From: Nymphaea colorata
Lineage: Eukaryota > Streptophyta > Magnoliopsida > Nymphaeales > Nymphaeaceae
Length of the DNA stretch: 64,000 nt
Assembly (NCBI RefSeq): GCF_008831285.2
Contig: NC_045150.1
Span: forward strand, 9,374,001-9,438,000
Reading direction: 5' to 3'
Numbering within the stretch: the stretch's first letter is position 1; every line of letters starts with the position of its first letter. Below are positions 1 through 53,121 of the stretch, piece after piece. Both the position numbers and the translations under genes were made by a program. The notes beneath the pieces were generated by a model. That model ran no database searches and had not been told where the DNA came from. It saw only the letters and a list, made by a program, of their open reading frames with translations.

Positions 1-159
1 TCACTTTTCCCAAATCCCTGTTTGGACACGAAATTTTTTTTGCAGATTAACATGTCAAGTGGAAAGAAACCCCAAGCTGCAGAAGGAGGGAAGATTGGAG
101 CTCGTCGTCCATTGCTAGCCAACTTTGGCAACACAATGGCAAATTTTGGCCACATAGTA

Positions 160-440
160 AAAAGTTGGAGGAAAGATGATCCATTTTTCACCTCACTAAG
201 AGTTTTTTCCAACAACGCTAATAGGCGGTCAGTTTTTCTTACAGCCGGGTCCCCGGGCTGGGCCCTCCACTTGTTGAGGGCCCGAAAACAGCAAAAAACC
301 TGGCCCAGCCCATTAAGGATTAAAAAATAATTTTTTTGTTTTAATGATATATATTTTATTACTAAAATTATATTTCATATTTAAAAAATTTATTTTATAA
401 ATTTTAAAAAATATTATTTTATTAAAACCGAGCCAGGCCT
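160..440. repeat. Dispersed GGGCCC/AT-rich repeat, solo copy
   Basis: The segment starts with a motif like GATCCATTTTTCACCTC, passes through a GGGCCC-rich block and ends in a long AT-rich run. The same order of motifs recurs in every unit of the array at 11.6-16.0 kb, but here no RNR1 sequence is attached. It therefore looks like the non-RNR1 half of the array unit occurring alone. No terminal inverted repeats were found. Positions 441-813 hold no recognisable gene. Confidence 0.6.
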
Positions 441-813
441 AACAGGCAAAAAGAAATGAACCAAAGGGTCCGACTTTTTTCCAAGGTAAAGTTACCCTCA
501 TCGGGTGATTTTGGCAGGGATAAATTCCCTGCGTTTGATGTCGTCGTGGAAAGCCGTACAAAAAAGTAAATTTTATTTGATGCACAGTAAAATCCATGCT
601 CATCAAACGGGCCTTAGGGATGCGTGCCATTACTAAAGAAGGCATCATTTGACCCGTGTTTTAGACCTGAGATCAAGTAAAGCTTGGCAACAATAAAAGA
701 GGTGAGGGATGGAGGCGAGAAATAGATTTGAAAAGCTCCATCATGTATCCACATGCACTGATGCCAATATCAAACCAATGAACGTACATGACTCGCTAAT
801 CCAGATATCTTAC

Positions 814-3800
814 CTTAGACCAAGCATAGAAATGCAAAGAAGTAAGTTTCCCAAAATTAGGTTGGTCCATGTAGATGTTCAGACTCTGACTCTGATCTAT
901 GTAGCACCCTCGGTCAATAGCAAGGTCCACCAGAATTTTTTGTTTGATCTCCCAAACGGTTCTGAAAAAATAACATCGAGTTTAACTACCAAAATAGAAG
1001 CTAAATAGGTGGGACGAGAAACACGTAAATAGTAGGATATGAATCTCCATACTTGTAAATTGATCTGAGATCAGCTGGAATCTCTGGGATTTTCTGAATG
1101 GAGCCATTCTCATATATTATTTTGTTCTTTAGAGAAGGAGACCAAAGACCCATTTCCGTCAAATCATTGAGAAGATGTTTGTTAACCACCACATATTCAC
1201 CACTGCAAACAATAGCAATTATCAGACAATTCTCAGATTCAGCTGAAAGAATGAGAGAAAGGGAAATGCCTAGAAAACAAACCTCAAAACCCTTCTACTG
1301 TAGATATTGGAAGTATACGGTTCTGGTAGATGCTGTGGGCATCAGAGCAACCAGAAGGGAATTCCTTAAGCCCTTGTTTGCAACCATTTCTCTTAAAGCA
1401 GGCCAATCCCACCGATTAGAAGGAGTTACTCCCCACATGTCAGGTTGGAAAATTCCCTGCATGAAATAGAAAAGGAAGGAGATAAATATATAGTAACCAA
1501 AGCATATTAAAATGCATAAAAATGAGTGATGATATACATATAGCCTCAGAGCAACTTCAACTTATTATAAACAGGCACACTGGCTGACATTCTGCTGAAT
1601 CTAAACTGCTTATGCATTGTTGTGCAAATGCACGACAGAGCATTTGGCCCTCATGCCTAAGTTTTCATGTCTCAGCATATAATTCTTGTTCTTAAAGGCA
1701 TCCAAATATTGTGGAGGATAGAATGTGAACAATAATGAAACGCAGCAGTGGACATTACGGTTCATAGACAAACCTTGCTTGCCGGACTCCCATGGTATGT
1801 CTCATAAGGGCCTTCTTTGGCAGAAAGTTCAGAAGAGGCTTTCAGAGCATTATAATAAATAGTTTCAAAAATGTCCTTGTTCAGTTGACGAGCCTAAGGC
1901 AGAAACAAAACAAATTTGAAGTCCAATCAGAAAAAATACAATAGCTGCAGGGCACAATAGAGCTAGTTTGGTGCAGTAACTAACCTCCTGTGAATCAAAA
2001 GACATCCCCAACAAGATAAAAGTATCAGCCAGTCCCTGAACCCCAATACCTATTGGCCTGTGTCGCATGTTTGATGTTCTTGCAGTCTCAGTAGGATAGA
2101 AGTTAACATCAATTATCTTATTCAAATTTGATGTGATTATAGAGGTGACCTAATAAAAAAGGAGGGGAAAAATATCATTCTCACTGAACTGATAGACAAA
2201 GAAACTGACAAAAGCCAAATGAAGACACAAACCTCAGCAAGTTTGTCAAAATCAAAATATCGATTGTATGAACCCCTGCTGCCAACCAGCTTGGATGGCT
2301 GGAAATCTTGTGGCAGACCCTGCAGAATGCCATAAGTTCAGACAAGCCAAGAAATTGCAAGTGTGATGCACAACTAGAATATTTTAGAACATGCACTTAC
2401 CTTTTCCTTGACAAAGCGAGGAAGAGCAAGTGATGCAAAGTTACAAACAGCAGTTTCTGTTGGACTTGAATACTCAACAATTTCAGCACACAGATTAGAA
2501 GACTTTATTGTACCCAAGTTTTGCTGGTTGCTTTTTCGATTGCATGTATCCTGCAAAAGATAGAGAGCTGCATAAGAATAAAAAATCTTAACTTAAAGCA
2601 ATACTTATGATTACTAAAGTTTGAGCAAATGAAGACCTTGTAAAGCATATAAGGGGTCCCAGTCTCAATTTGTGAAACCAAGATAGAGAACCAAAGCTTT
2701 TGGGCCTTCACAACCTTTTTTGCCTTTCCCTAAAATGGAAAAACAAAACCCACATTTCAAACAAAACAACATTCTAAAAAACTTAAGATTGCACCATAAG
2801 TTGCAACAAAAAAAACTTTGCAAAGTTGGATAACTTACTTCTGTCTCGTATTTAGTATATAGAGCTTCAAATTCCTCACCCCAGCAATCAGCTAGGCCTG
2901 GAGCCTCGCTTGGACAGAAGAGTGACCATGTTTCATCATCCTGGACCCTCTTCATGAAGAGGTCAGGTACCCAAAGTGCATAGAAAAGATCACGGGCTCT
3001 GTTTTCCTCCTATAGCAACCAAACATCTAAGTTCAGTCAAACAGAATCACCAAATGCATAATTTAATAGATTATGCATACAATACAACGACCAAACAGCC
3101 TGACATTCACATGCTTGCAAATTTAATCGGATTCATTATGTAACCCTGAAATCAAAATTTCAAAAGGTGACATTTGGATAGCATGTATCTACATGTTAAA
3201 AAGTTCAAACAGATCAGTACCGAACCCTGGTCAGATTCTCGAGTCTATTTTTTAACTGACTCAACCCAAGCCAAAAATCAAGTGGGATTGCCATTCCTCT
3301 TTTTACCAGCTTTTGTAAAATTAAAGTTGTGAAGACAGCTCTAAAAATTCCACTCAAAATCGAATTGAAGTCTAACAGGTACATCTAAAGCAGGGCGATG
3401 CAGAAAGCACGTGATAGTCCCAAAGCATTGGGTCCTCAATCACACTCTAATTCACAATTTCACATACACAGACGCGACATAGAAATAAAAAGAAGGGGGA
3501 GAAACTGTAACAGGACATGTTATAATAACAGCTGCAAATACCTTTCCATGATTCTTTCTCAGATCAAGAAACTCAAAGATGTCCGCATGCCATGGTTCCA
3601 GATACACAGCAAACGCACCTATGAGATGAAGAAGCATCACTTAAATTCAAAAGAACAAGATAATAAATACAACCCAAACTGCAGGATTCAAACATTGAAT
3701 ATCTAGGAACCTCCCCAACCAAGAAGTTCCAATACCATTCAACACTTAGCATCAGGAGAAAGGAAGCAAGATAACGTTTTTCAGGGAGTAAAAAATGTTA

Positions 3801-5162
3801 CCTTTCCTTTTGCCGCCCTCTTGTTCAACGTAACGAGCAGTGTCAATTAACACCCTCAGCATTGGAACAATCCCATTTGAAGTACCATTTGTACCACGGA
3901 TATAGCTGCCCGTTGCACGAATATTATGGACAGAAACACCAATCCCCCCATCGAATTTGCTAATGACAGCACATTCCGTCAGTGTATCATAGATACCTTC
4001 AATGCAGTCATCTTTCATGCAGATAAGGAAGCAGCTGCTCAACTGATAGAGAAATACCCATTAAAACTAGAAAGAAAATCGAAAGTACGACGGAGTATGA
4101 AAGCATTCCCAGCTTAAGCACACAAAACATACTTGAGGCCTGGGTGTTCCGGCATTGAAAAGAGTGGGCGAAGCATGGGTGAACCAGCGCTGGGACATTA
4201 AATGGTAAGTTTTCAATGCAGAATCAATGTCATCTTTGTGGATGCCAATGGCAACCCTCATGAGCATATGTTGTGGTCGTTCAACAACCTTCCCACCAAT
4301 CTTTAGGAGACATGACCCTTCCAGGGTCTTGAACCCAAAATAATCATAATCGTAATCTCTGTCGTATATGATTTCACCGTCCAGAAGAGCAGCATTCTGA
4401 AATAAGAACCACATTCAGACAATCAGGAAACAGAGGCTGCCGTTGTTTTCATCCAAAGAATAAGAAACTTTTTTCTGTTTCTGCGTTAAGAGAAAATCAC
4501 CTAAATATATGCTCTCAACTCAGGCCAATCAGAATAAGAAAAAAATTATTCAAATAACAAAAATTGCACGATGGGCCAAAAACAGATTAAAGGAAACCAG
4601 GATACGACACGAGAAAAAAATAAGATAAATGGACCTTCATAATTATCTCATAAACATCGTCTGCAATCAAAGGAGCCTTTTGCCCTGATCCTGAATTTAC
4701 ATGATTGTACATATCCTTGATTCTGAAAACACACAAAAAAAAAAACATCAGCCTCCATGAACAACCGAACAAAACTCGTATCCGTAAAAAAAATTGTATA
4801 TAAGCATCTGGGTAATCACACGTTTCCGAAAAGGACTTCTTAGTATGCTTATGCACATTTGAAACAGCAATCCTCGCTGCCAGCTTCACAAAAGAACGAG
4901 ATAGAATCAGAGAAAAACAAAAAATAAAAATTTGAGAAAAATCCAAAGGATTAATTCATTGTACTATAAACCCAGGGAAAACGGAAAATTCTAGGAAGAC
5001 ATAGAATGTGAATTACAGAGGTATAAACCCAGGGAAAACGGAAAATTCTAGGAAGACATAGAATGTGAATTACAGAGGCATAGTCAGAATGGTTGGTGGT
5101 CATGAGAACCAATTCGTCAAAGGGAGTAAGCTGAGTGGTGGTGACGCCAGTGTAGACGCCGC
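814..5162 (-). pseudogene. RNR1 large subunit, copy A (truncated, frameshifted)
   Basis: This is a decayed gene for the large subunit of class I ribonucleotide reductase, which makes dNDPs from NDPs in the cytosol. Exons read on the minus strand are 5074-~5162 (partial first exon), 4822-4883, 4635-4722, 4133-4396, 3802-4042, 3542-3618, 2839-3009, 2637-2729, 2401-2550, 2233-2319, 1985-2149, 1774-1893, 1283-1456, 1053-1202 and 814-961. Nearly all keep GT-AG borders and a consistent phase. The catalytic SSNLCAE motif is present in exon 2401-2550. Three defects are visible. The start codon and roughly the first 45 codons are gone. A deletion in exon 1283-1456 shifts the frame at the PTAST loop. 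The last exon(s), from the GLKTGMYYL region on, are missing. Long stretches of intact reading frame suggest recent decay. Confidence 0.9.
4965..5078. repeat. 57-bp tandem duplication in RNR1-A intron 1
   Basis: Two nearly identical 57-bp copies (the CCCAGGGAAAACGG motif at 4971 and 5028) span the intron 1 / exon 1 border of copy A. The second copy carries the actual donor site. Copies B and C have only one copy here. Confidence 0.85.
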
Positions 5163-6400
5163 TGTAGGCTGTAAATAGGCGGGGGAGCGAAGGTGGGCCT
5201 CCCTTTTAAAATTTTCCCTTCTCCCTCCTCGTGATTCGCATCACTCTACCCCACTTTGCCCAATTCCCTCCTTGTCCCTCTCATCTTAAAAGCTTCCTCT
5301 TTTTTTGTTATCTTTTCCTTTTTATTTTTCTTTCCTACCAATTAGGGCGTATGGAGATGATTATTCGATTCCTTATTCAATTTCCACGGACATTACTCTT
5401 CCATTATCACTAAAAAGTTGAATAAAGTGGTGAATGTCTCGTGTTTGATTTCAGTAGGAGTTACTTTTCCATTGATAATGAGATAAATACGTCGTTAAAA
5501 TACACAATGGTGTAGTAGTGCTAACATGCCACTCAACTGGGTGGAATGCATGAAATACACACCATGCGAGATTTTTCATGTCACGAATCTAGAATGTGAT
5601 TCTAGACATTTCGAAACTTGTCCTACCTCGAATGGTTTTTCTTTTTTGCCAGTACCATAGTGGTAATCAAACAGACATTTTAAAGGGATAAATATAATGA
5701 GGGACTTAATGTTCGACCCTCACAAGCGGCCATGTGAGGGATATTTTTATTTAAAAAAAAAAATGTTTTCAATTTATCTTTTGTCAGGTCGTTTTTTTTT
5801 ATCACAAGGGCACTTTTGTCAAATTGAAACAGTATTGCTGCTAGGAATGGTAACATATCTGAATTGGCTGTGGTATTCAACTGAACCACTGTGAAAGAGT
5901 CATATGTGAAAAAAAAAACGTAATATCTGATTAAAAAACATAAATAATATCTGATCGGATTCAGATTCATATATATAAAAATATCAAATGGGATTCCCAA
6001 TTAGATCAGAGTCAGATTGGAATGAACATCATGTTTCAATGCCTTTATATACTGAAAATCGGCAAAGATTCGGTTTAAATCTCATATTCTGATTTATACG
6101 TGAATATAAAAATAGGATTCAGATCTAATTTAAATGGTGAAATCATATTTCATATTCGGATTCGTATCTGAATACATGAACATCAGAAAGAACTAATATA
6201 ATTAAGAGTATGTTGGTTTGAATATAATCCGTAGACATCCCTGATTCCCATGTTTAAGACTCAAACACATATCCTCTTGAACATTCCTACTGCTTCAGTT
6301 GAATTAAAATATTGCTTTTTCAAGGAACCGATAATTGATTAGTTTTTATTCAGTTACGCATCATATAATACAAAAAAAGCCTTTGGTGCTTTCTTTCAAT
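5163..6400. repeat. Upstream flank of RNR1-A, duplicated at 20.0-20.6 kb
   Basis: No gene is seen. The part from about 5870 to 6400 matches 20070-20610 in order and wording (for example the GATCGGATTCAGATTC and ACGCATCATA motifs). The two copies mark the shared 5' flank of RNR1 copies A and B and imply that the whole locus was duplicated. Positions 6400-6946 hold nothing I recognise. Confidence 0.7.
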
Positions 6401-6946
6401 AACCTTTATACGAAAAGATGAATAATAAGGGCTCTCGGTCAACAATTATATGTGAGTAAGTCTTGAACTCTCTTAATTTAAGTACCTACCCCTGCCAGAA
6501 TATTGAGACTAACATGGGTCTTACAGCCTTTAGTGGGCTCGGAAAGTATCGTATAACCCCATTAACATGGGGCAGCAAAAGTAGAGTGGAAGGAAGCAAA
6601 AAAGAAGAGCCAGCCTCACGTAGAAACTTTCCATACAGTACTAAATTTAGCTCTCTCCCTCCCCCTCATCTGTACAACTTGTTCAGGACAACGGGCTTCA
6701 ACATGGTCCACCGGTTCAAGCACTAACTAAGACATAATTTTTTTTTGGTAAAGAATATATCAAAATATTAACACATATATTAAACTAATTTTGTGAGGTG
6801 TGCACACACCAACAATCGGGTTGTATTAGCCTGTGCAGAGCCCTTTAATAATAACGTTGGATCAGGAAGTTTCCTGTGCTTCTTCTCTGCCCGTGAATGA
6901 AAGGGCCAAGCCGCCCTGATGCCTAGCCTTTGTAATACCCTAAAAT

Positions 6947-7490
6947 TTAGGTCACCTGGGTGCGTTTCAGGTGAGCTCGCACCCGCACGGGTGCGTTGCG
7001 GGTGCGCACCCAATCAGCACCCGCTGATGAGCTCGCACCCAAACCGCACCCGGGGGTTGGATCTAGTTTCGAAACCAAATCTAAACCAAGTTTATGGTTT
7101 GGATTTAAATCTGATTTCGAGAAAAAACCAGATCCAAAATCCATAAAATCAAATCCACCATTCTCACCCGCCAGCCATTACATCTAAGTTAAATACATCT
7201 ATAGATATATTATATGTTCTTTTTTCTCTTTCAAAAAAAACGATACAGGACTAAAGAATGGTGGCTTTCATAAAACAATCTGTTTCTTTTTTGATTTTTT
7301 TCCACTACCATAAAATGTATAATTTTAATTGTGTTATTTAATTTCTACAAAAAATTAATAATAATAATAATATTATTATTAATATTAATAAAATATCTTC
7401 ACCGCACCGCCGCACCTAATTTTTTTGAGATGTACGACACCGGCACCGGCACCGGCACCGGCACCCGCACCCCGCACACAGGTGACATAG
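6947..7490. mobile_element. Non-autonomous hAT-like element, family 1
   Basis: The ends read TTAGGTCACC and, inverted, CTATGTCACC, followed inward by GGTGCG-rich sequence. The element is flanked by CCTAAAAT (6939-6946) and CCTAAAAA (7491-7498), an 8-bp target duplication with one mismatch. The interior has a CACCCG/CGGCAC-rich head and tail and an AT-rich middle, with a GGCACC minisatellite near 7440-7475. No transposase is present. It is related to 16427-17267. Confidence 0.75.
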
Positions 7491-7498
7491 CCTAAAAA

Positions 7499-8800
7499 TT
7501 GTTACAGCTTGAGGACGGACGGAATAAGCGACTGAACTGCGCCTACATGTAACTGTTTATGCTGAGGATCTTTGGTGGTGTTGTTTTCAAATGCATGCGT
7601 ATGAGGCAAGGATCTGTTTCTATTGATTTTTTACAACTTAGACGTGATTAAGAAGAATAAAGAAAATCGACGACAGGATAATAAAAATGAAGTTATAATT
7701 TCGAAACAAATGAGTGGCAGAAGTGTTTGATTGTCGATTTGGAAGGAACGCTGGTCGTGTCGGTGCGTATAGCTCCAAGTGAGCGCATCAGACGTTTTGC
7801 AATTGATTCAAATGTGTTTATGTGAATTATTTTTTCTTGAACATTTTTTCTTCATGTTGAAGTGTGAATCAATCGTGTGGCATTGGCGTAGTTTCACATC
7901 AAATGTCAGGAACGGGGCACTCTGTTCCAAGAACAGTGTGTTTGACATGTTCTAGCGACAGAATGTACATTTTGTCCAGGATTTTAGTGACATTAAAAAA
8001 AAAAACTATCCAATCACAACGGGGCTGGTTTCAAATTTCTCATATATAAATATGTATTTTGTAACATCCCCTTTTAGAAGATCAGTATCGCGAAACAAAT
8101 TGGGTATGTGCCGATACGGCTCATATTATCCATCCAACATGTTGATTAATCAAAACTAATGAATTAATCTTCATCCTTAATTCAGCATTTACCAATGATA
8201 TTGCCCGATGCATATCAGCGGCATACATCGGTTTTCAAATAATCGAGTATGATTTAGATTTTGATATCTAGGAATAATGCTTATTCACTTTAGCGGGAAT
8301 ATGAAATCCATTTTAGCAGCATGGATTTGAGAGGGAGAGGCGTAGACTTCAAAGTTCAAATACCAGAAATCACCCCTTCTCTTCTTCTCTGATTAGTAGT
8401 TAAAATGCCCTACAAGGCTATATTTGTTAGTCTCGTATCTAAGATCGGAGGCTGTGATTAGTTTTAGGTGAGCTCAACTGTTTGGAACAAATAATGGATT
8501 TCACAACTCTTAATATGAGATATGCATTATATTATGAAAACGTAAATTTGTAATCCACCAAATAGCCTGGAGTTCCTTGTACACTATGGTTTTTACTGAA
8601 CCTCACTCTAGGGATGATGAGGCTGAATTGAATTGTACATGCTGAATGGCTGGCTGCAATTATAGAGAGAGTTAATGGTAATTTTGAGATCATAGCAAAC
8701 AATGAAGGCTAGAAGCGTAGGCTTACAGCTATGGTGAAAGGCAAAAGACGGAGAAATAGCAACACATTAGGGCACTTAGCCACTGTTTAAGGCCGGGTAC
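7499..8800. other. No recognisable gene
   Basis: AT-rich sequence without splice-consistent coding blocks, RNA genes or clear repeats. Confidence 0.5.
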
Positions 8801-8817
8801 TTTGCCGACTGCCTACC

Positions 8818-8925
8818 GTAGAGGCTGGTGAGAAGATGCGTCAAATACAATATTATTAATATGGGAAAACGGTAGAGGCTGGTGAGAAGATGCGTCAAAT
8901 ACAATATTATTAATATGGGAAAAGC
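8818..8925. repeat. 54-bp tandem duplication
   Basis: A 54-bp unit starting GTAGAGGCTGGTGAGAAG occurs twice in direct succession with almost no change. Confidence 0.85.
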
Positions 8926-9701
8926 GATGGTGTGGCCCGCCCTGGCCCGTTAACAATTAAAAGAAATATTTTTTATTTAATAATATTGTATTTTATTATT
9001 AAAATAAATTTTATATTATAAAAAATTTATTTTATAGATTTTAGTATTAAGAAAATTATATTTCAAACAATCTTTTTTTATTATAACTGGGTCGAGCTGG
9101 GCTTGGGCCCAATGGGATATCAAGCTCGGGCACGAGTTTTGGACATAAGGCAGGAACAGACCCGGTTCTTACTGGGCCTGGTAGGCCCAATGCCCACCCT
9201 TAGTTTAGATAGGGGTAACCACCATCGTCCCTCTTAGGCATGGGTATTAGTACCTGGCATCCAGCCTGCCCGGGTCCAAGTGAAAGATTTTCATGGTCAA
9301 GCTCTTGCCCATTGCACCCGGCCTGGCCCCGGTCAACATCATAATGGGTCGGGCCCGGGTAATTTGACCTGGCTCGCTAGGGCCAGTTAGGTCTAGGGGT
9401 GGGCATCGGGTCGGCCCGTCGGGCCCGACCCAGCACGACCCATTTGATAATAAAAAAATATTTTTTTAATAATAATAATTTTTTTAAAGTTATTGGGCCG
9501 GATTGGGCCCCGTCGGGCCCTTAGCCCGGCCTGGGCCTAGTACCTGCCGGTGTCCCCGCCTTGCGCCCACCCTTAATCTAAGCCCTACAGCTACTGTTGT
9601 GTTCAATGTCAGAACCGGGTCCAAGCCCGCCTGATGTCTGAAACTCGGGCCCGGGCTTGATACCTGAAACCTAAGGTTTAGGCCCGGTTTGGCCCAATTA
9701 T

Positions 9702-9738
<37 letters not shown>

Positions 9739-9975
9739 ATAAGGGCTTGATACCTGAAACTTAAGGCGTAGGCCTGGCTCAGCCTAATTATAATAAAAAA
9801 AATTTAAAATATATTTTTTTTAATAATAAAATCTATATCCATAATAATAATAATTTTTTAAAAAAAGTTATTGGGCCCGCTCGGGCCCTTAACCCGGGCC
9901 GAGCTTAACCCGGGCCGAGCCGAGTACCTGCCGGTGTCCCGACCTTGCGCCCACCCTTAATCTAAGCCCTACATG
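8926..9975. mobile_element. Cluster of nested GGGCCC-rich non-autonomous elements
   Basis: Several blocks alternate GGGCCCGG-rich arms with AT-rich cores. Three blocks end in GCCCACCCTTA (near 9200, 9580 and 9960), and one begins GGGGTGGGCATCGGG (9395), an inverted match to that end. The last two also share the following TAATCTAAGCCCTACA, so a copy plus its flank was probably duplicated. A (TA)n run lies at 9703-9735. No transposase is seen. The exact boundaries are uncertain. Confidence 0.5.
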
Positions 9976-11095
9976 CTACAACAGTGGGGCAGCTGGGTTA
10001 AGCGTCCCTGAGTTTTTTATCTCCTGATTTGTATATCTTTCTTCTACCTATACTCATATTGATTTTTCTGCAAATCCCGTCTCCCAGCAACCGTTTTAGT
10101 GACAGTATCATTGTTGCTTTACCATTTTACTAATTTATCCAGTTCAGTTTCCCTGGTTTAAACCTCTATAGTGCTCGGAAAAGCGTCCAATAACCGAGTG
10201 AGCAGTTCATGCGTTATGAATAAAAGAGCATGAAGGTGGTGAACTTGCGTATAAGATCGAGAAGTGCGCTCAGACATTCAAGGGTTGGGTTGGAAATGCT
10301 TTGAGATCAAGTGGACCATGGTTGGGGAACCTTCGACATGACAGTCCAAGGATACAAGCAAACCTTTCAAGCATGCGCTCTTAAAAGGCAAATCCCTGCC
10401 ATAAAATAAAAGAGAACGTGTCGTTCCTGCTATGCGAATCAGGGTTCCGCTTGGTTTAACTTAGGGTTGTAGCAATTTGTAAACCTGGGTTTGGATGACG
10501 AAGACAGAAATAAAATGCCTTATTTATGGTTATTTATCAATCTACAATGCAACAGGAAAAGAAAGATGCAGTTGCCACTTATTGATCCTGGGGATATGTT
10601 TAGAACGCAGTAAGCATGCACTCGTTGGACATTTCAATGTAAAAGTTTAATTTCCTTTTTTTTGTTACTGTAAATTGATGAACAGCAAGATAATGAGCTC
10701 CAATTACTTGACAATTTCAAACTTGCAAGCCAAGTCTCGCAGTTTACTGTATATTCTCTATTTTAAACAATCTATACTTTTATCGTCGTTCCACCAAAAA
10801 AGGAACATTGTTAAAACATCATAGATTCACTAACTAACCAGTGAGAATAACCAAAGATAATCGGCATACAAATACAGCTAACTCCCACATGCCATGCACT
10901 CTTCTTGGTTTTCTAAGGAACAAACCATCTGCGCTATCTTGGTATCAAGATCATCATCTGCCACTGCTGGTTTATCCTGATGTGTGCATTAAGTTATTTG
11001 GTATCAGAAGAGAAATCAAAACAGGGAGATAGAGGTTAAGATAGAGGTTAAAGAACAATATAATGATATAAATTATACGAATGAAATGTTATCAC
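9976..11095. other. No recognisable gene
   Basis: Mostly AT-rich sequence; I see no family-like coding block, RNA gene or strong repeat. Confidence 0.45.
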
Positions 11096-11177
11096 CTGAA
11101 GCATAGAAGCATCTACAGTGAAATAGATTGCATTGGCCGCAGGACGGGAGCATAGATAATACATGCCCGTTTGCGAT
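11096..11177 (-). pseudogene. Orphan RNR1 C-terminal exon fragment
   Basis: On the minus strand this reads TGMYYLCSRPAANAIYFTV followed by DASMLQ and a GT donor at 11095-11094. That is the conserved near-C-terminal exon of the RNR1 large subunit, exactly the part missing from copy A. No acceptor or neighbouring RNR1 exon is recognisable beside it. A C in LCSR replaces the usual arginine. Confidence 0.8.
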
Positions 11178-11208
11178 GTATTACGGAGCCGGAATGACAA
11201 AAAATGAC

Positions 11209-11410
11209 ACATCGGAGAATGGATAAGGGCGATGGTGAAGGTTCTGCTGCGATGGTGGGTTTTTCCCATCATCGGCGCCATCTTTGCATCCATTGTCAGA
11301 GCGGGAATGACAGAAATGACATCACCAGCGACACCATCGGAGAATGGATAAGGGCGATGGTGAAGGTTCTGGTGCGATGGTGGGTTTTTCCCATCATCGG
11401 CTATCAGAGA
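11209..11410. repeat. 125-bp tandem duplication
   Basis: CATCGGAGAATGGATAAGGG and the following ~75 bp recur 125 bp downstream with single-base changes. It abuts the RNR1 fragment on one side and the large array on the other. Confidence 0.8.
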
Positions 11411-11619
11411 AGCTTACTGGTGGAGAATGAATGAATTTTACGGTGCGGCACAGCAGCGTCGATGCCCTTACATACTTAAAAAAATGGGGATTTGTGATGG
11501 AGGTTTTGCGCTAGTGTCGATGCTGCGTTCAATTGAAGACGAAGAAGAATCCGTCTATTAATGGTCATCAAAAGGGAGAGAACAAATCAAGAAGAGAGAG
11601 AGAGAGGTTTCGATGGAAG

Positions 11620-14600
11620 AACAATGAACCTGCCGCGGCCTGCCATACTGAGAAAAGAATGAAAACAACAATCCTAAACAACAATCCTAACAAAACTCGT
11701 ATCAGTAAAAAAACAACCTAATGTGAATTAGAGAAGCAAAAAAATAAAAATTTTAGAAAAATCCACCCGATCATTGTAATATAAACCTAGGTAAAACTGG
11801 AAATTCTATGGAGACATAAATGGGAATTACTAAGGCATGGTCAGGGTGGTTGGTGGTCATGGCAGCTGCCATCTCAGCAACCAATTCGTCGAGCTAGGTG
11901 GTGGTGACGCAGGTGTACACTCCGGTGCAAACCTAGCAGAGTTCATATTCATTACTACAAGAAACAACCTGTGCTCTGACGATCCATTTTTCACCTCCGT
12001 CGGAGTTCTTTCCAACATTGCTGAATAAGCCGTCAGTTTTTCTAGGTTTGGGTCCCGGGCCCAGACCGAATAAAACCCTGCCCCGGCTGGGCCCGGCCTG
12101 TTAAGGATTATTTTTTTTGTTTTAATAATATATATTTTATTACTAAAAATTATATTTTAGATTTAGAAAACAATCACCCTGCCGCAGCCTGCCTTGTTGA
12201 GAAAAGAAGGGAAACAACAATCCTAACAAGACTCGTATAGGTAAAAAAACAAATGTATATAAGCATCTAGATAATCTCACGTTTCTGAATTATGCAGATT
12301 TGAAACAACAATCCTACCAGCGAGGTTCATAGAATCAGAGAAACAAAAAAAATAAAAACTTTAGAAAAATCCACCAGATCATTGTACTATAAACACAGGT
12401 AAAACAGAAAATTTTACGGAGACAGAACAAGAATTACTGAGGCATGGTTACAGTGGTTGGTGGTAATGGCAGCTGTCATCTCAGCAACCAATTTGTCACC
12501 AGTGTAGACTCCGATGCAGACCTAGCAGAGTTCACATTCATCACTACAAGAAACAACCCATGTTCTGACGATCCATTTTCCACCTCTGTCAGAGTTGTTT
12601 CCAACATCGGTAAATAGACCGTCAGTTGTACTAGGTTTGGGCCACGGGCCCGAACAGAAAAAAACCTGGCCCAGGCCAGGCCTGACCTGTTAAGGATTAT
12701 TATTTTTTTGTTTCAATAATATATACTTTATTACTAGAAACTATATTTTAGATTTAAAAAACAATCACCCTGCCACGGCCTGCCTTGCTAAGAAAAGAAG
12801 GAAAACAGCAATCCTAACAAAACTCGTATCGGTAAAAAAACAAATGTATATAAGCATCTAGATAATCTCACGTTTCCGAATTATGTAGATTTGAAACAAC
12901 AATCCTACCCGCGAGCTTCACAGAAGAACAAGATAGATTTAGAAAAAACAAAAAAATAAAAACTTTAGAAAAATCAACCAGATCATTGTACTATAAACCC
13001 AGGTAGAACCGAAAACTTTACGAAGACATAGAATGAGAATTACTGAGAAATGGTTAGGGTGGTTGGTGGTCATGACAACTGTAATCTCAGCAGCCAATTC
13101 GTCGAGCTGGGTGGTGGTGACGCCGGTGTAGACCTAGCAGAGTTCATATTCAACACTACAATAAACAACCTATGCTCTGACGATCCATTTTTCACCTCTG
13201 TCAGAGCTCTTTCCAACATCGCTGAATATGCTGTCACTTTTTCTAGGTATGGGCCACGGTTCCGGACCGAAGAAAACCCGGCCCAGGCCGTGCACAGCCT
13301 GTTAAGGATTAAAAAAAAATTGTTTCAACAATATATATTTTATTACTAAAAATCATATTTTAGATTTAAAAAACAATCACCCTGCCGCGGCCTGCCTTGC
13401 TGAGAAAAAAAGAAGGAAAACAACAATCCTAACAAAACTCATATCGGTAAAAAAACAAATGTATATAAGCATCTAGATAATCTCACGTTTCCGAATTATG
13501 TAGATTTGACACAGCAATCCTACCCGCGAGCTTCACAGAAGGACAAGATAGAATCAGAGAAACAAAAAAAATAAAAATTTCAGAAAAATCCACTGGATCA
13601 ATGTATTATAAACCCAGGTAAAACGGAAAATTCTACGAAGACATAGAATGGTAATTACCAAGGCATAGTCAGGGTGGTTGTTGGTCATGGCAGCTGTCGT
13701 CTCAGCAGCCAATTCGTCGGCTTGGTGCTGGTGACGCCGATTTTCCAACATCGCTGAATAGGCCATCAGTTTTTCTAGGTCTGGGCCCCGAACCGAATAA
13801 AACCCGGCCCAGGCCGAGCCCGACCTGTTAATGATTAAAAAAAATGTGTTCTAATAATATATATTTTATAACAAAAAATTATATTTTAAATTTAAAAAAC
13901 AATCACCCTGCCACAGCCTGCCTTGCTCAGAAAAGAAGGAAAACATCAATCCTAACAAAACTCGAATGGGTAAAAAAACAAATGTATATAAGCATCTAGA
14001 TAATCTCATGCTTCCTAATTATGCAGATTTGAAAGAACAATCCTACCCGCAAGCTTCACACGCGAGCTTCACAGAAGAACAAGATAGATTTAGAAAAAAC
14101 AAAAAAATAAAAACTTTAGAAAAATCAACCAGGTCATTGTACTATAAACCCAGGTAAAACGGAAAATTCTACGGAGACATAGAATGGGAATTACTGAGGC
14201 ATGGTCAGGGTGGTTGGTGGTCATGGTAGCTGCGATCTTAGCAGCCAATTCGTCGAGCTGGGTGGTGCTGGCACCGGTGTAGACTCCGGTGCAGACCTAG
14301 CAGAGTTCATATTCATCACTACAAGAAACTACCCATGCTCTGACGATCCATTTTTCACCTCCATCAAAGTTGTTTCCAACATCGCGGAATAGGCCGTTAG
14401 TTGTTCTAGGTCTGGGCCACGGGCCCAGACAGAAAAAAACCCGGCCCAGGCCGGGCCTGACCTGTTAAGGATTAATTTTTTTTTTAATAATATATATTTT
14501 ATTACTAAAAATTATATTTTAGACTTAAAAATACAATCACCCTGCCGTGGCGTGCCTTGTTGAGAAAAGAAGGAAAACAACTATCCTAACAAAAGTCGTA

Positions 14601-15967
14601 TCCGTAAAAAAAACAAATGTATATAAGCATCTAAATAATCTCACGTTTCTGAATTATGCAGATTTGAAACAACAATCCTACCTGCGAGCTTCACAGAAGG
14701 ACAAGATAGATTTAGAAAAAACAAAAAAATAAAAACTTTAGAAAAATCAACCCGATCATTGTACTATAAACCGAGGTAAAACAGAAAATTCTACGGAGGC
14801 ATGGTCAGGGTAGTTGGTGGTCATGGCAGCTGCCATCTCAGCAGCCAATTCATCGAGCTGGGTGGTGGTGACGCCGGTGTAGACTCCGGTGCAGACCTAG
14901 CAGAGTTCATATTCATCACTACAAAAAAACAACTCATGCTTTGACGATCCATTTTTCACCTCCATGAGAGTTCCTTCCAACATCGCTGAATAGGCCGTCA
15001 ATTTTTCTAGGTTTGGGCCCCGGACCCGGTCCGAAGAAAACCCGGCCTGTTAAGGGTTAAAAAAAAAATTGTTACTAAAAATTATATTGTAGATTTAAAA
15101 AACAATCACCCTGTCGTACCCTGCCTTACTGAGAAAAGAAGGAAAACAACAATCCTAACAAAACTCGTATCGATAAAAAAACAAATGTATATAAGCATCT
15201 AGATAATCTCACGTTTCCGAATTATGCAGATTTGAAACGACAATCCTACCCGCGAGCTTCACAGAAGAACAAGATAGAATTAGGGAAACAAAAAAATAAA
15301 AATTTTAGAAATATCCACCGGATCATTGTGCTATAAACCCAGGTAAAACGGAAAATTCAGGGTGGTTGGTGGACATGGCAGCTGCCATCTCAGCAGCCAA
15401 TTCGTAGAGCTGGGTGGTGGTGACGCCGGTGTAGACTCATGTGCAGACCTAGCAGAGTTCATGTTCATCACTACAAGAAACAACCCATGGACGATCCATT
15501 TTTCACCTCCGTCAGACTTTTTTCCAACATCGCTGAATAGGCCGTCAGTTTTTCTAGGTCTGGGCCCTGGGCCCGAACCGAAGAAAACCCATCCCAAGCC
15601 TAGCCCGACCTGTTAAGGGTTAAAAAAAATTTGTTTCAATAATATATATTTTATTACTAAAAATTATATTTTAGATTTAAAAAACAATCACCCTATCGCG
15701 GCCTGTCTTGCTGAGAAAAGAAGGAAAACAACAATCCTAACAAAACTCGTATCAGTAAAAAAAACAAATGTATATAAGCATCTAGATAATCTCAAGTTTT
15801 CGAATTATGCAAATTTGAAACAGCAATCCTACCCACGAGCTTCACAGAAGAACAAGATAGAATCAGAGAAACAAATAAAATAAAAATTTTAGAAAAATCC
15901 ACCGGATCATTGTACTATTAACCCAGGTAAAACAAAAAATTCTACTGAGACATGGAATAGGAATTAC
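11620..15967. repeat. ~600-bp tandem array made of RNR1 exon/intron pieces
   Basis: About eight units begin near 11621, 12171, 12763, 13372, 13900, 14534, 15102 and 15685, each with a motif like CAATCACCCTGCCGCGGCC. In order each unit holds a remnant of RNR1 exon 2 (GATTTGAAAC...CGCGAGCTTCACAG, internally deleted), intron 1 (CATTGTACTATAAACCCAGG), the 3' half of exon 1 in antisense, a new segment with GACGATCCATTTTTCACCTC, a GGGCCCGG block and an AT-rich tail. Unit length is roughly 530-630 bp; the first unit is shortened and the one near 13372-13900 lacks its middle. Short plus-strand ORFs of about 63 codons recur in the units but are antisense to RNR1 exon 1. Confidence 0.9.
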
Positions 15968-16182
15968 CGAGGCATAGTCAGGGTGGTTGTTGGTCATGGC
16001 AGCTGCCGTCTTAGCAGCCAATTCGTCGAGCTGGGTGGTGGTGTCGCCGGTGCAGACCTTCTACGTGGCGCAGACAGAAACACAGCGCTTCTCGCGAGGC
16101 CATAGCTAAGCTTGTTCAAGCTAGTGGTGATCTTATCAAAGTGGACAGCCTCATTGCGCCCATCCCTCTTGATCACGTGCAT
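15968..16182 (-). pseudogene. RNR1 copy D, exon 1 only
   Basis: Exon 1 starts at 16182 ([20 protein letters not shown]) and ends with a GT donor at 15967. It is 215 nt against 228 nt in copies B and C. The 13-nt shortfall lies around 16070-16110, shifts the frame and destroys the conserved QKVC-GVY region. The 5' leader (16183-16330) resembles that of copy C, including an AGAGAG run. This exon is joined to the last array unit, so it probably marks the parental end of the array. Confidence 0.85.
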
Positions 16183-16426
16183 TTTGGCCGACAGAGATTG
16201 GGGACACTTCTTCCCATTGTAATTCAGCCAAACACTTTGCAACTGCCAGAGAGAGAGAGAGATGGGGAAAGAAGGATAGATAAAGATGAGGATGAGGAGG
16301 TGATGGCATATGCGAGCTGCTATAAAGGTTTCATGGACCAAACACTGTAGCATGTACTTTAGAAGTTAATTTTGTGCATGTCATTTACAGATGCCATTAA
16401 CAGATGCTCTCAACAGAAATTTAAAG

Positions 16427-17267
16427 CTATGTCACCTGAGTGCGGGGTGCAGGTGCGGGTGCCGGCACGACACATCTCAAAAAATTTAGGTGTGGCAGTG
16501 TGGTGAGAGTGTTTTATTATTATTATCATTGATTTATTATTATTATTATTATCTTCTATTATGGTTTTATCTACAAAGTTCAAAATAAAAAATTTTAAAT
16601 ATAACAAATTTAAGAATAGATAGTCAGTATAGTTCACTTTCAGTCATAAATGGACAAATACACACTTTTCATAAATGGACAAATACACTTGCACTTGAAT
16701 AACACAATTACACAAGTACACATTAATTTACACAACCTGATTCATATACGAAAATCATAATTAATTAGCTTGTCTCCACCCAGTAGTTTTGAAAGTTTGA
16801 AGACAAAAAAAAATATGCATTCCAATAAAATCAAGCTGATGTTAAGTAGCTGAATGAGTTTCCTTATTAGGGAAAACTAAAAGAATATACAAGTTCACTG
16901 TTTATTTTAGATTGCATAGCAAATGACAACTAAAATCAGTTTAAAATTCAGAAACAGGATATTGAAAAAAATTTCGAGCATATAATGCAAAGCACATCTA
17001 GGAGGGGCGAGGAAGACGCGGGTGATAGACAAGGGGAGAGGTTGACGCGGGTGGTTGACTTTGTCAAAAATTAAAAAAAACCCTAAAAATTGGACGAAAA
17101 TAGTAGACCGACATATATTTGACTGCACCCGACTCGGGTCAAATGCGAGTCGGAAAAGGACAATTTTAGTCGGGTGCAGTCTCAGCCGCACCTGACTCTT
17201 GTTTGACCGCGTTGGGTGCGCATCGACACGGGTGCAAGGCCAAACAGGGTGTACCCTGGTGACTTAG
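16427..17267. mobile_element. Non-autonomous hAT-like element, family 1, second copy
   Basis: The ends are CTATGTCACCTG and, inverted, CTAAGTCACCAG. A perfect 8-bp duplication, ATTTAAAG, flanks it at 16419-16426 and 17268-17275. GGTGC/CACCCG-rich arms resemble those of 6947-7490; the 841-bp middle is AT-rich. No transposase is visible. It separates copy D from copy B. Confidence 0.85.
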
Positions 17268-17354
17268 ATTTAAAGTATTGCTCTTCGAGCGGTTCCATTT
17301 AGTTCCAAAAGATTAATGAACACACAATAGAGCAAGTTTTGTGCAGTAACTAAC

Positions 17355-19846
17355 CTAATGTGAATCAAAGGGCATCCCCAACAAGATAAAAGTGTCAGCC
17401 AGTCCCTGAACACCAATACCTATTGGCCCGTGTCTCATGTTTGATGTTCTTGCAGTCTCAGTAGGACAGAAGTTAACATCAACTATCTTATCCAAGTTTG
17501 ATGTGATTACAGAGGTGACCTCATCAAAAAGGAGGGGAAAAATATCATGCTCACTGAACTGATAGACAAAGAAACTCACAAAAGCCAAATGAAGACCCAA
17601 ACCTCAACAAGTTTGTCAAAATCAAAATATCCATTGTATGAACCCCTGCTGCCAACCAGCTTGGATGGCTGGGAATCTTGTGGCAGACCCTGAAGAATGC
17701 CATAAGTTCAGACAAGTCAAGAAATTGCAACGTGATGCACAACTGGAATATTTTAGAACATTCAAGTACCTTTTCCTTGACAAAACGAGGAAGAGCAATT
17801 GATGCCAAGTTACAAACAGCAATTTCTGTTGGACTTGAATACTCAACAATTTCAGCACACAGGTTAGAAGACTTTATTGTACCCAAGTTTTGCTGGTTGC
17901 TTTTTCGGTTGCACTTATCCTGGAAAAGAATAGAAAGCTGCCTAAGAATTAAAAATATTAACTTAAAGCAATACTTATAATTAATAAAGTTTGAGCACAT
18001 GAAGACCTTGTAAAGCATATAAGGGTTCCCAGTCTCAATTTGTGAAACCAAGATAGGGAACCAAAGCTTTTGTGCTTTCACATCCTAAAATGGAAAAACG
18101 AAACCAACATTTAAAACAAAACAACATTCTAAAAACCTTAAGATTGCACATAAGCGAATCAAAAAACTTTGTAAAGCTGGATAACTTACTTATGTCTCGT
18201 ATTTTGTATACAGAGCTTCAAATTCCTCCCCCCAGTAGTCAGCTAGGCCTAGAGCCTCGCTTGGACAGAAGAGTGACCATGTTTCATCATCCTGGACCCT
18301 CTTCACGAAGAGGTCAGGTACCCAAAGTGCATAGAAAGAATCACGAGCTCTGTCTTCCTCCTATAGTAACCAAACATCTAAGTTCAGTCAGGCAGAATCG
18401 CCAAATGAATAATTTAATAAATTATACACATAAAACAATGAGCAAACATCCTGACATCTACTTGCTTGCAAATTTAATCGGATTCATTATGTAACCCTCA
18501 AATCAAAACTTCAAAAGGCAACATTTGGAAAGCATTTCGCTGGTCGATTTGCTAATGACACCACATTCCTTCAGTGTATCATAGACACCTTCAATGCAGT
18601 CATCTTTCATGCAGATAAGGAAGCAGTTGCTCAACTGAGAGAGAAGCACCCATTAAAACTAGAAAGAAAATCGCAAGTACGAAGGAACAGGAAAACATTC
18701 ACAGCTTAAGTACACAAAACATACTTGAGGCCTCGGTGTTCCGGCATTGAAAAGAGTGGGTGAAGCATGGGTGAACCAGCGCTGTGACATTAAATGGTAT
18801 GTTTTCAGTGCAGAATCAATGTCGTCTTTGTGGATGCCAACGGCAACCCTCATGAGCATATGTTGTGGCCGTTCAACAACCTTCCCACCAATCTTTATGA
18901 GACATGATCTCTCTAGGGTCTTAAACCCAAAATAATCATAATCGGAATCTCTGTCGTATATGATTTCACTGTCTAGAAGAGCAGCATTCTGAAATAAGGA
19001 CGCCATTCAGACAATAAGGAAACATAGGCTACCGTTGTTTTCATCCAAAATTAATTTAGAATAAGCAAGTTTTTTTCTGTTTCTACGTTAAGAGAAAATC
19101 ACCTAAATATATGCTCTCAATTCAAGCCAGTCAGAATAAGAAAAAAAATTATTCAATTAACAAAAATCGCACGATGGGCCAAAACAGATTAAAGGAAACC
19201 AGCAGAAAAAAATAAGATAAAGGGACCTTCATAATTATCTCATAAACATCGTCTGCAACCAAAGAAGCCTTTTGCCCTCATCTCGAATTTACATGATTAT
19301 ACATATCCTTGATCCTGAAACGCACAAAAAAAACAACAACAACAACAAAAAAGAACATCAGCCTCCATTAACAACCGAACAAAACTCCCATCGGTAAAAA
19401 ATAAAATGTATAAGCATCTGGGTAATCTCATGTTTCTGAAAAGGAGTCTTCCTATTCTTATGCAGATTTGAAACAGCAATCCTCCCCCGAGCTTCACAAA
19501 AGAACGAGACAGATTCAGAGAAAACAACAAATAAAAATTTGAGAAATCCACCGGATCATTGTTGTACTCTAAACACAGGTAACACTGAAATTCTAAGGAG
19601 ACATAGAATGGGAATTACAGAAGCATAGTCAGGGTGGTTGGTGGTCATGGCTGCAGCCGTCTCAGCAGCCAATTCGTCGTGCTGGGTGGTGGTGACGCCG
19701 GTGTAGACTCCGGCCCAGACCTTCCGAGCGACTTGGACGGGATCGCAGTGCTTCTGGCTGAGGCCATGGCTAAGATTCTTCAGGCGGGCGGTGATCTTAT
19801 CAAAGTGGACAGCCTCCTTGCGCCCGTTCCTCTTGCTCACGTACAT
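17355..19846 (-). pseudogene. RNR1 large subunit, copy B (multiple nonsense, internal deletion)
   Basis: Exons on the minus strand are 19619-19846 (start to DYAS, intact), 19432-19491, 19227-19314, 18725-18988, 18545-18634 (partial), 18190-18360, 18007-18084, 17770-17919, 17603-17689 and 17355-17519. The second exon is 60 nt instead of 62 and its donor GT has become AT. Stops are TGA at 19278-19280, TAA at 18190-18192 (last codon of its exon) and TAG at 17355-17357. About 0.77 kb is deleted relative to copy A, from within exon 5 through exon 6 into the next intron. Exon 18007-18084 has a 15-nt in-frame loss. Everything 3' of 17355 is absent. The NLCAE catalytic motif is still readable. Confidence 0.93.
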
Positions 19847-20029
19847 CTTCGCCGACGAAGATCGGGGACCCTTCTTCCCTGAGTAATTCCGCCGAACACT
19901 GGCAACTGCCACAGAGAGAGAGAGAGAGAGAGAGAGATAAAGATGAGGAAGAGGAGGCGATGATGGCTAATGGCGGGTAAAGAAGAAGGGAGCGCAGCGG
20001 CTCCAAATAGGCGGGAGGAAGGTTGGCGT

Positions 20030-20640
20030 CCTTTTCTTTTCAAAATTTTTGCCTTCGCCCTCAGGTTTCCCGCTGAATCACTGTGAAGGAGCTATAAGTT
20101 GGAAAAAAAACTTGATTTCTGATTAAAAACATAACTAATGTATGATCGGATTCAGATTCGGATATACAAAAATATCAAATGGGATCCCGAATTAGATCAG
20201 ATTCAGTTTGGAATAAATATCATGTACCAATGCCCTTATATGTTGAAAATCGGCTATTATTTGGTTTAAATCTCAGATTCTGATTTAACGTGAATACAAA
20301 AATAGGATTCAGATCTAATTTAAATGATGAAATCGTATTCCATATTCGGATTCATATGACCTTTCTTCACTAGTATTTGAGTCTGAATACATCAACAACA
20401 GAAAAAACTAATATAATTAAGAGCATATTGGATTGGAATATAATCCGTAGACATCCTTGATTTCCTTGTTTAAGACTCAAACGCATAACCTCTTGAACAT
20501 CCCTACTGCTTCAATTGAATTAAAACATTGTAGTTTTCCAAGGAACCGACAATTGCTTATTTCTTATTCAGTTACGCATCATAAGTACAAAAAAGCTTTT
20601 GGTGCTTTCTTGAAACCAACAGAAAAACATAAAAGAAAAA
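20030..20640. repeat. RNR1 5' flank, copy of 5870-6400
   Basis: From about 20070 to 20610 this matches the flank upstream of copy A. The match ends where intron 3 of copy C begins, so this is a breakpoint joining the upstream flank of copy B to the truncated copy C. Confidence 0.7.
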
Positions 20641-20655
20641 CATAAGATAAAGAAC

Positions 20656-21214
20656 CTTCATAATTATCTCATAAACATCGTCTGCAATCAATGGAGCGTT
20701 TTGTCCTGATCTCGAATTTACATGATTGTACATATCCTTGATCCTGAAACGCACAAAAAAAAAAAACAGAACATGAGCCTCCATGAACAATCGAACAAAA
20801 CTCGAATCCGTAAAAGAATAAATGTACATAAGCATCTGCTAATCTCACGTTTTAGAAAAGCATTTCTTTGTATTCTTGTGCAGATTTGAAACTGCAATCC
20901 TGGCCGCCAGCTTCACAGAAGAACGAATCAGAATGAGAGAAACAAAAAAAAAACACCAGGTAACAGAGACATAGAATTGGAATTACCGAGGCATAGTCAG
21001 GGTGGTTGGTGGTCATGGCTGCTGCCGTCTCAGCAGCCAATTCATCTAGCTGGGTGGTGGTGACGCCACTGTAGACGCCGGTGCAGACCTTCTGCGCGAC
21101 GCGGACGGGATCGCAGTGCTTCTCGCTGAGGCCATAGCTAAGCTTCTTCAGGCTGGCGGTCATCTTTTCAAAGCGGAGAGCCTCCTTGCGCCCGTCCCTC
21201 TTGATCACGTACAT
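20656..21214 (-). pseudogene. RNR1 copy C, intact exons 1-3 then truncated
   Basis: Exons are 20987-21214 (228 nt, start [12 protein letters not shown]), 20849-20910 (62 nt) and 20656-20743 (88 nt). All have GT-AG borders and unbroken phase, covering the N-terminal regulatory region of the RNR large subunit up to YEIIMK. After the third donor the sequence switches within about 15 bp to the flank seen at 20030-20610, so no further exon can follow. The leader (21215-21350) has an AGAGAG run. It is too short to be an enzyme; a truncated transcript is possible. Confidence 0.85.
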
Positions 21215-21399
21215 TTTCGCCGACGGAGATGGGGGACGTTTCTTCCCAGAGTAATTCAGCGGAACACTCTGCAACTCACAGAGAGAGAGAGAGATATCGG
21301 GAGAGAAGGATAGGTAAAGAGGAGGATGAGGAGGCGATGGCATACTGAGCTGCTATATAACGTTTACGCCATGTGGGTTCTGTTTTAAATTTTTAATGG

Positions 21400-22940
21400 T
21401 TGCAAATGGGATATTCTAATAAGTGAAAAGAGTGAATCACTCAGAAATATTCCAGCATGCGATTCTAGTTCTGAATGGTACTCGACATCTCAGTGGGACA
21501 CCATGAAAACAATTGGTCGGAATTAACTTCGGTGTCTGCCTCGATCCGGTAGAGTGGTTGAATCTAAGTGCAAATGGGATCTTCTAATAAGGGAAAACAG
21601 TGAATCACTCAGAAATATTCCTGCATGCGATTCTAGTTCTGAATGGTACTCGACCTCTCAGTCGGACATTATGAAAACAATTGGTCGGAATTAACTCCGG
21701 TGTCTGCCTCGATCCGGTAGTGGTTGAATCTTAATGCAAATGGGATCTTCTGATAATCTCAGAAATATTCTTGCTTGCGAATCTATTTCTGAATGGTACT
21801 CGACATCTGAGCCAGGCACCATGAAAACAATTGGCCGGAATTAACTTCGGTGTCTGCCTCGATCCGGTAGAGTGGTTGAATCTTAGTGCAAATGGGATCT
21901 TCTAATAAGGGAAAGCAGTGAATCACACAGAAATATTCCTGCATGCGATTCTAGTTCTGAATGGTACTCGACATCTCAGTCGGACACCATGAAAACAATT
22001 GGTCGGAATTAACTTCGGTGTCTGCCTCGATCCGATAGAGTGGTTAATGCAAATGGAATCTTCTGATAATCTCAGAAATATTCTTGCTTGCATTCTATTT
22101 CTGAATGGTACTCGACATCTGACCCAGACACCATGAAAACAATTGGCCGGAATTAACTTCGGTGTCTGCCTCGATCCGGTAGAGTGGTTGAATCTTAGTG
22201 CAAATGGGATCTTCTAATAAGGGAAAGCAGTGAATTACTCGGAAATATTCCTGCATGCGATTCTAGTTCTGAATGGTACTCGACATCTCAGTCGGACACC
22301 ATGAAAACAATTGGTCGGAATTAACTTCGGTGTCTGCCTCGATCCGATAGAGTGGTTAATGCAAATGGGATTTTCTGATAATCTCAGAAATATTCTTGCT
22401 TGTGAATCTATTTCTGAATGGTACTCGACATCTGAGCCAGGCACCATGAAAACAATTGGCCGGAATTAACTTCGGTGTCTGCCTCGATCCGGTAGAGTGG
22501 TTGAATCTTAGTGCAAATGGGATCTTCTAATAAGGGAAAGCAGTGAATCACACAGAAATATTCCTGCATGCGATTCTAGTTCTGAATGGTACTCGACATC
22601 TCAGTCGGACACCATGAAAACAATTGGTCGGAATTAACTTCGGTGTCTGCCTCGATCCGGTAGAGTGGTTAATGCAAATGGGATCTTCTGATAATCTCAG
22701 AAATATTCTTGCTTGCGAATCTATTTCTGAATGGTACTCGACATCTGAGTCAGGCACCATGAAAACAATTGGCCGGAATTAACTTCGGTGTCTGCCTCGA
22801 TCCGGTAGAGTGGTTGAATCTTAATGCTAATGGGATCTTCTAATAAGGGAAAGCAGTGAATCACTCAGAAACATTCTTGCTTGCGAATCTATTTCTGAAT
22901 GGTACTCGACATCTGAGTCAGGCACCATGAAAACAATTGT
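21400..22940. repeat. Dimeric higher-order minisatellite
   Basis: The motif GGTACTCGAC recurs near 21478, 21645, 21797, 21963, 22109, 22275, 22422, 22588, 22734 and 22901. Spacings alternate between about 166 and 147-152 bp, giving a ~313-bp dimer. The longer subunit carries GGGAAAGCAGTGAATCAC and the shorter lacks it (TCTGATAATCTCAG). Each ends with CTCGATCCGGTAGAGTGGTT. No known family was recognised. Confidence 0.92.
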
Positions 22941-45371: not shown

Positions 45372-45408
45372 AATCCCCTTTCCTGTCCCTTCCAGCCTCG
45401 AAGAAACC

Positions 45409-45417
45409 CTAGAGCAT
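45409..45417 (-). promoter_or_regulatory. Two-codon upstream ORF of LRB-like gene A
   Basis: The presumed 5' leader contains ATGCTCTAG, a start codon followed by one sense codon and a stop, ending 37 nt before the main ATG. The paralogue has ATGCACTAG at the same distance. Upstream ORFs this short usually lower or condition translation of the main frame. That the transcript includes this site is an inference. Confidence 0.6.
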
Positions 45418-45559
45418 GGAGAAGGAGTCCCTCTCCTGCTTCCGCAAAACCCTAATCCCCGACCGGAGCACAAGGATCAGACGATTTGCGGAAGCGCTCC
45501 GGAGAAGAGAACCGCAGAAAAGGCAACGACGACGGGAAGGTCCCGGCCGTGAATGCTTC

Positions 45560-53084: not shown

Positions 53085-53121
53085 ATCCCCCAGTTCTTCC
53101 CCCCTCAGCCTCGAGGGCAGC

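Follow-up and report, generated by a model that had tools for sequence, protein, structure and literature searches.

Accounts of the first step by which single-copy DNA becomes a tandem repeat rest mostly on models, and the locus described here raises the question of whether that step can be read directly from a plant genome. We analyzed a window of 64,000 nucleotides from Nymphaea colorata (contig C13, NC_045150.1; C13:9374001-9438000) and searched the genome of this species (407.8 Mb in 783 contigs) for related sequence. A first-pass annotation of the window had described a tandem satellite composed of RNR1 gene slices fused to a GGGCCC/AT-rich repeat. Its observation and the gene origin that it proposed are right; its account of the partner of the gene slice and of the mechanism must be revised, as must the term "satellite".

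An RNR1 (ribonucleotide reductase large subunit) gene is carried by contig C11, where exons 1 to 3 are open as judged by eye. On C13, RNR1 copies and fragments form a cluster that spans about 9333 to 9395 kb: copy Aup (9333.1 to 9338.9 kb), the sister pseudogene E (about 9359.0 to 9361.3 kb, 25 kb from the array locus), fragment F (9361.3 to 9362.4 kb), copy A (9373.5 kb to window position 5026), copy D (within the window and containing the array), copy C (two pieces within window positions 17323 to 20024), and copy D2 (window positions 20625 to 21334). Positions given below without a contig are those of the window. Five of its seven RNR1 open frames scored above the Pfam cut-off, one (copy D) scored below it, and one had no match; exon 1 of copy C matched an RNR large chain in the PDB at 9.1e-24. 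About eleven collinear pieces are common to window positions 680 to 16663 and C13:9334017-9361300, which identifies the two, at the level of sequence, as segmental duplicates. Elsewhere in the genome, RNR large-subunit matches on contig C439 (22,889 bases) are compressed into 1.6 kb (2839 to 4422), unlike the spread-out copies on C11 and C13, and possibly come from a foreign organism. The window also contains a long open reading frame of 778 amino acids (29946 to 32282) and two similar stretches with co-oriented open frames (39539 to 40772 and 47234 to 48492; 85% over 1.26 kb), which together with a second pair (45081 to 45531 and 52796 to 53246; 79%) represent a second duplication in the window.

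The array occupies positions 11620 to 16059 and consists of eight antisense RNR1 slices (minus strand) that alternate with seven partner pieces (plus strand), all in one orientation. Leftmost is slice U0 (11620 to 11934), whose left edge is intact and whose exon 2 was removed by a deletion of its own, followed by partner piece 1 (11935 to 12170), which is made up of a junction piece of about 43 bp, here called Q, and a fragment of an element, here called X, with the left part of a hAT-type MITE. To the right come U1 (12171 to 12523), piece 2 (12524 to 12761), U2 (12762 to 13135), piece 3 (13136 to 13373), and U3 (13374 to 13741), the right end of which was removed by the same deletion that truncates piece 4 (13742 to 13899). 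The remainder comprises U4 (13900 to 14298), piece 5 (14299 to 14533), U5 (14534 to 14898), piece 6 (14899 to 15102), U6 (15103 to 15450), piece 7 (15451 to 15684), and U7 (15685 to 16059). U7 runs, within copy D, from the 3' part of exon 1 through intron 1 and a deletion-bearing exon 2 into the start of intron 2. Because this last slice belongs to copy D itself, the array ends at 16059 and not at 15967; in our alignments the slice was trimmed at 16056. Self-BLAST paired multi-unit stretches at E = 0, with 80 to 84% identity over 1.4 to 2.1 kb, and seven slices and copy D were aligned to the C11 RNR1 gene, to which slices are 72 to 77% identical. Both the array and its kinship with RNR1 are thus far beyond chance, and the count of about eight antisense RNR1 slices in the first-pass annotation holds.

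Read in the sense of the gene, each slice comprises the 3' part of exon 1, intron 1, and exon 2, as had been described, and in addition the start of intron 2 and a tail of non-RNR1 sequence, about 50 bp long. All seven units that keep the relevant part of exon 2 (U1 to U7; U0 has lost it) carry a deletion of about 18 bp there. The deletion is absent from E, C, D2, Aup, the RNR1 sequence at window 4.7 kb, and C11, and fragment F has a different gap at the same site. The unit breakpoints are also held in common, as had been claimed. Where the exon 1 end of a slice meets the partner, the junction is identical in six of seven partner pieces, U4 having lost it through the deletion at 13742, and the junction from partner to slice is identical in all seven, with one extra base in U5. 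At the exon 1 breakpoint, copy D reads GACCT|TCTACG and the units read GACCT|AGCAGAG; exon 1 of copy D passes the breakpoint, and the parental end of the array is still visible.

We then considered where the partner came from. Sequence related to it is indeed present at window positions 175 to 440, where it had been taken for a stand-alone dispersed repeat; this stretch belongs to X, which lies in copy A on the plus strand (window 1 to 613; C13:9373916-9374613), measures 698 bp, and starts 85 bp before the window. The ends of X, GGCCCCGTTTGATG and CATCAAACGGGCC, match each other, and TTA stands on both sides (CATTTA|GGCCCC...GGGCC|TTAGGG). From this TTA target duplication and these terminal inverted repeats, features typical of such elements, we take X to be Harbinger-like, that is, of PIF/Harbinger type. 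In copy A, the sequence on either side of X corresponds to 10019 and 10133 of the joined C11 stretch, which places X in an RNR1 3' intron; E carries X in such an intron as well, and at 9333.9 kb the RNR1 copy has, by eye, the empty site. For the 3' end of X, 84 candidates were found, of which 40 were scored; 39 of these are matches other than the copy A insertion itself, and X is therefore a dispersed element. Its interior (1 to 240), searched against the genome, matched only copy A itself, E (bases 23 to 59), and five array units (175 to 239). A 128-base query across the slice|Q|X junction gave eight matches in the genome, namely six full junctions, truncated U4, and window 175 to 239 (X in copy A). 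Taken together, these matches indicate that the source of the partner is this X insertion, and that partner and slice follow the order seen in E. An open stretch within X (43 to 240, after TTTTTTTTGCAG) was considered as a captured gene exon and rejected; it had no Pfam or PDB match and no second genome copy by protein search, and we thus treated it as a chance frame.

The only dispersed component of the partner is a MITE that is nested in X and begins near window position 240. We presume it to be of hAT type; its dispersed copies show 8-bp target duplications and terminal inverted repeats. Flanks were inspected by eye (11 of 20 loci tried, nine examined): five have exact 8-bp duplications, two match at 7/8 (L041 and L046, one insertion that has been duplicated), one has a near match out of register, and one has none. 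No 8-bp duplication was seen at the copy nested in X, where the right end is degraded. The common junctions and the dispersal of this MITE part would suit the original proposal that a gene slice fused to an independent dispersed repeat and then spread stepwise from the copy D end as a satellite. Against that proposal, the non-MITE part of the partner was found only at X and in the array, and X itself lies in the same pseudogene family and stands in the same order. Nor does the fused unit recur elsewhere, as a satellite might: its junction is confined to one locus of about 4.4 kb in the genome. By the junction and X-interior searches this proposal appears largely refuted, and we regard it as very unlikely.

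The host of the array is a copy of RNR1. To the left, positions 10869 to 11172 (minus strand, the same sense as the slices) match 10358 to 10647 of the joined C11 stretch at 81% and also match the 3' regions of the copies at 9333.4, 9359, and 9373.5 kb. To the right, positions 16060 to 16300 (minus strand) hold the 5' part of exon 1 and upstream sequence beyond the unit breakpoint, with a broken frame and a C11 match that extends to 16300. No match to about 5952 to 10357 of the joined C11 stretch was found between window positions 10869 and 16300. With the RNR1 3' region on the left, exon 1 and upstream sequence on the right, and the stretch between unmatched, copy D is a single RNR1 pseudogene with an internal deletion, and the array lies within it. 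The open frame at 15994 to 16353 has an ATP-cone match restricted to residues 58 to 85, at 22 bits (family cut-off, 25.8). Copy D is, on its exon homology and lost coding capacity, an RNR1 pseudogene. Two flanks border the array. The right flank (16301 to 16663) is common to sister locus E. The left flank (LF; 11267 to 11619) is contiguous with slice U0, and both its sequence and its junction with the slice recur in E (L012:5984-6350). LF is probably also part of X, as its interior, on the basis of one C9 locus in which LF (81% to E) is followed 55 bases later by pieces of the X 3' end. Also left of the array, 11210 to 11276 is a 67-bp near-identical local duplicate of 11335 to 11401, which is single in E.

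Sister E preserves the locus with a single slice. At C13:9359984-9361300 (L012:5984-7300), the slice runs without interruption into the flank on either side; the array junction was not found in E, and no array is present there. In E, the MITE-bearing 5' portion of X stops about 65 bases left of LF. From these arrangements we propose a history that we consider reasonably probable, in which a deleted, X-bearing RNR1 pseudogene was duplicated and a tandem array then formed in copy D. An RNR1 copy with X in a 3' intron would first have undergone a deletion of about 4 kb that joined the X interior (LF) to intron 2. The resulting pseudogene would have had the order 3' exon, X, LF, intron 2/exon 2/intron 1/exon 1, which is still seen as E, and this segment would have been duplicated within the cluster. 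In copy D, a tandem duplication would then have linked mid-exon 1 to a site within X, Q lying at the join. A deletion inside X, from the middle of the MITE to the tail of LF, would have removed half of the MITE and most of LF and shortened the unit to about 600 bp; the join shares, by eye, about two bases (AA). Unequal exchange or comparable recombination may then have produced seven partner-slice units in a short time, after which the units would have decayed independently with little homogenization. Directly observed are the anatomy, the junctions, the single-copy sister, X with its empty site, and the restriction of the junction to one locus; the order of events, and in particular the placing of the array after the duplication, is inferred, as are the unequal exchange and the neutrality of the array.

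Several observations count for this history. The unit order X - slice is the E order X - LF - slice in shortened form; E is contiguous, with a single slice and without the array junction; and the slice|Q|X junction is confined to the array. The X interior at 175 to 239 occurs only in copy A and five units (23 to 59 also in E), and the matching ends of X, its TTA flanks, and its empty site point the same way, as does the exon 2 deletion, present in all seven informative units and absent from E. Against it, the assignment of LF to the X interior depends on one C9 locus, and Q has no source, a genome search having given no match outside the array. Part of Q, CACTACAAGAAA, bears some resemblance to a CACTA-transposon end; the genome holds no second copy of it, and we make no such claim. 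The partner could instead be filler DNA that was copied from elsewhere at the first tandem-duplication join. Such a duplication with an insert at its join predicts left (U0) and right (U7) edges that are intact on both sides, as observed, and Q lies at the join with its source unmatched. Most of the partner, however, comes from X, which adjoins the slice in the same order in E, such that only Q needs filler; we therefore consider a filler origin of the whole partner improbable.

The divergence among units bears on how, and when, the array arose. Slices differ by a mean of 11.2% (28 pairs; 8.3 to 15.6%) and partners by 13.7% (21 pairs; 8.9 to 18.4%). The eight units and E form a firm group (100/100), within which the trees are near-star and the inner groups weak (the best, U2, U4, and U5, at 91/93); this shape counts for the proposed history. 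Neighboring units are no more similar than expected (r = 0.19; 19% of 5040 orders give a value at least as high). Stepwise spread from the copy D end, for which the first-pass annotation had suggested a tree, is not shown by these trees or by neighbor similarity, although two features lean toward it. U6 is the unit closest to D (9.0% difference), and exonic changes relative to the other copies rise with distance from D (trend z = -2.5; 32, 35, 30, 26, 29, 31, 27, and 27 changes from U0 to U7 in 173 columns common to the eight units). This leftward trend is weak, since the rows share history, and noncoding sites have no clear trend (z = -0.97). Differences in root distance were considered as a sign of unit turnover and dropped, because turnover leaves root distances unchanged.

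The age of the array relative to the segmental duplication is the point at which another history competes. With the same anatomy and partner source, the array could predate the duplication, and E would be a contracted array, in which exchange between a first slice (with intact exon 2) and a last slice (with a 12-bp exon 1 deletion) left one copy. This 12-bp deletion, flanked by short direct repeats, occurs in both D and E and is absent from U0, U1, U4, U5, and U6 (the site is lost in U3); either it recurred or the array predates the split of D and E. Recurrence is plausible given the direct repeats and a similar deletion in U2. Unit divergence is as great as that of the D/E flanks near the array (left, 10.6% [37/348]; right, 11.3% [65/577], or 10.5% [39/370] without the exon) and exceeds that of the rest of the duplicated segment (7.5% [319/4241], 5.7% [33/577], and 7.9% [111/1399]); if one clock applies, the units are as old as the duplication or older. 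In the tree, moreover, E is not set apart from the units; a clade of units alone is neither found nor rejected (p-AU = 0.33). This counts against the history that we prefer. Conversely, E lacks the exon 2 deletion of the seven informative units, and within the same slice it is further from the eight units (11.8 to 17.2%; mean, 15.1%) than they are from one another, which argues for an array younger than the duplication. We regard the older array as unlikely, albeit a contender to be taken seriously, and tentatively retain the sequence of duplication followed by array formation in copy D.

Retention of the array as a source of small RNAs that act on RNR1 was also considered. Stretches of 26, 22, and 19 bases in the array are identical to C11 RNR1, and stretches of up to 40 bases to the 9338-kb copy. 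The near-star decay and a slice identity to C11 of only 72 to 77% speak against such a role, which from the sequence seems scarcely credible.

What, then, should the array be called? Its units are head to tail (seven partner-slice units and one slice), and to this extent "satellite" is apt; long arrays, several loci, and homogenized units, as the ranges of slice and partner divergence make plain, are not part of the picture. The array is local and decaying and is not a satellite family, and its formation resembles what duplication and decay would ordinarily produce in a cluster of plant genes. A second tandem array (21401 to 22939; 313-bp period, 4.8 copies, 95% matches) adjoins copy D2, and 651 bases of it, searched against the genome, matched only there and in short pieces at C13:9347286-9347634. 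Since this array lies in the same cluster, duplication of the RNR1 cluster may be an active source of arrays, and the array in copy D would be a nascent satellite with its single-copy sister, element, and both edges in one region; we hold this idea tentatively and find it rather doubtful. The deletion, duplication join, shortening, and amplification are readable here because the donor element is preserved together with both array edges and a sister that has one slice. With related species, these first steps could be ordered and dated.

Individual components of the locus resemble known systems. X has TTA on both sides and matching ends, like PIF/Harbinger-type elements, and the dispersed copies of the nested element have 8-bp flanking duplications and matching ends, like hAT-type miniature elements. 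A satellite built from a slice of a protein-coding gene is not reported among the literature matches listed, as represented by their titles and the start of their abstracts, a set that lies mostly outside the subscription literature. Duplicated pseudogenes in plants, as outlined in PMC7935947, are likewise fragmented gene copies in the genome, whereas here one fragment is tandemly repeated with a transposable-element spacer. The rye pSc200 and pSc250 arrays are described as having been co-amplified with adjacent transposons (PMC4857426); there, too, tandem repeats lie beside transposon pieces and short-homology recombination has been proposed, but the rye arrays are massive subtelomeric blocks and the present one measures about 4.4 kb inside a pseudogene. 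Satellites that arise from transposable-element remnants are outlined in a review (PMC12628747) as beginning with few tandem copies and forming long arrays later. They have in common with the RNR1 array a short tandem duplication that includes a transposable-element remnant, for which end-joining and non-allelic recombination have been proposed. In contrast to those satellites, more than half of the unit described here is a gene slice with a short tail, and its eight slices form no long array and lie at one locus.
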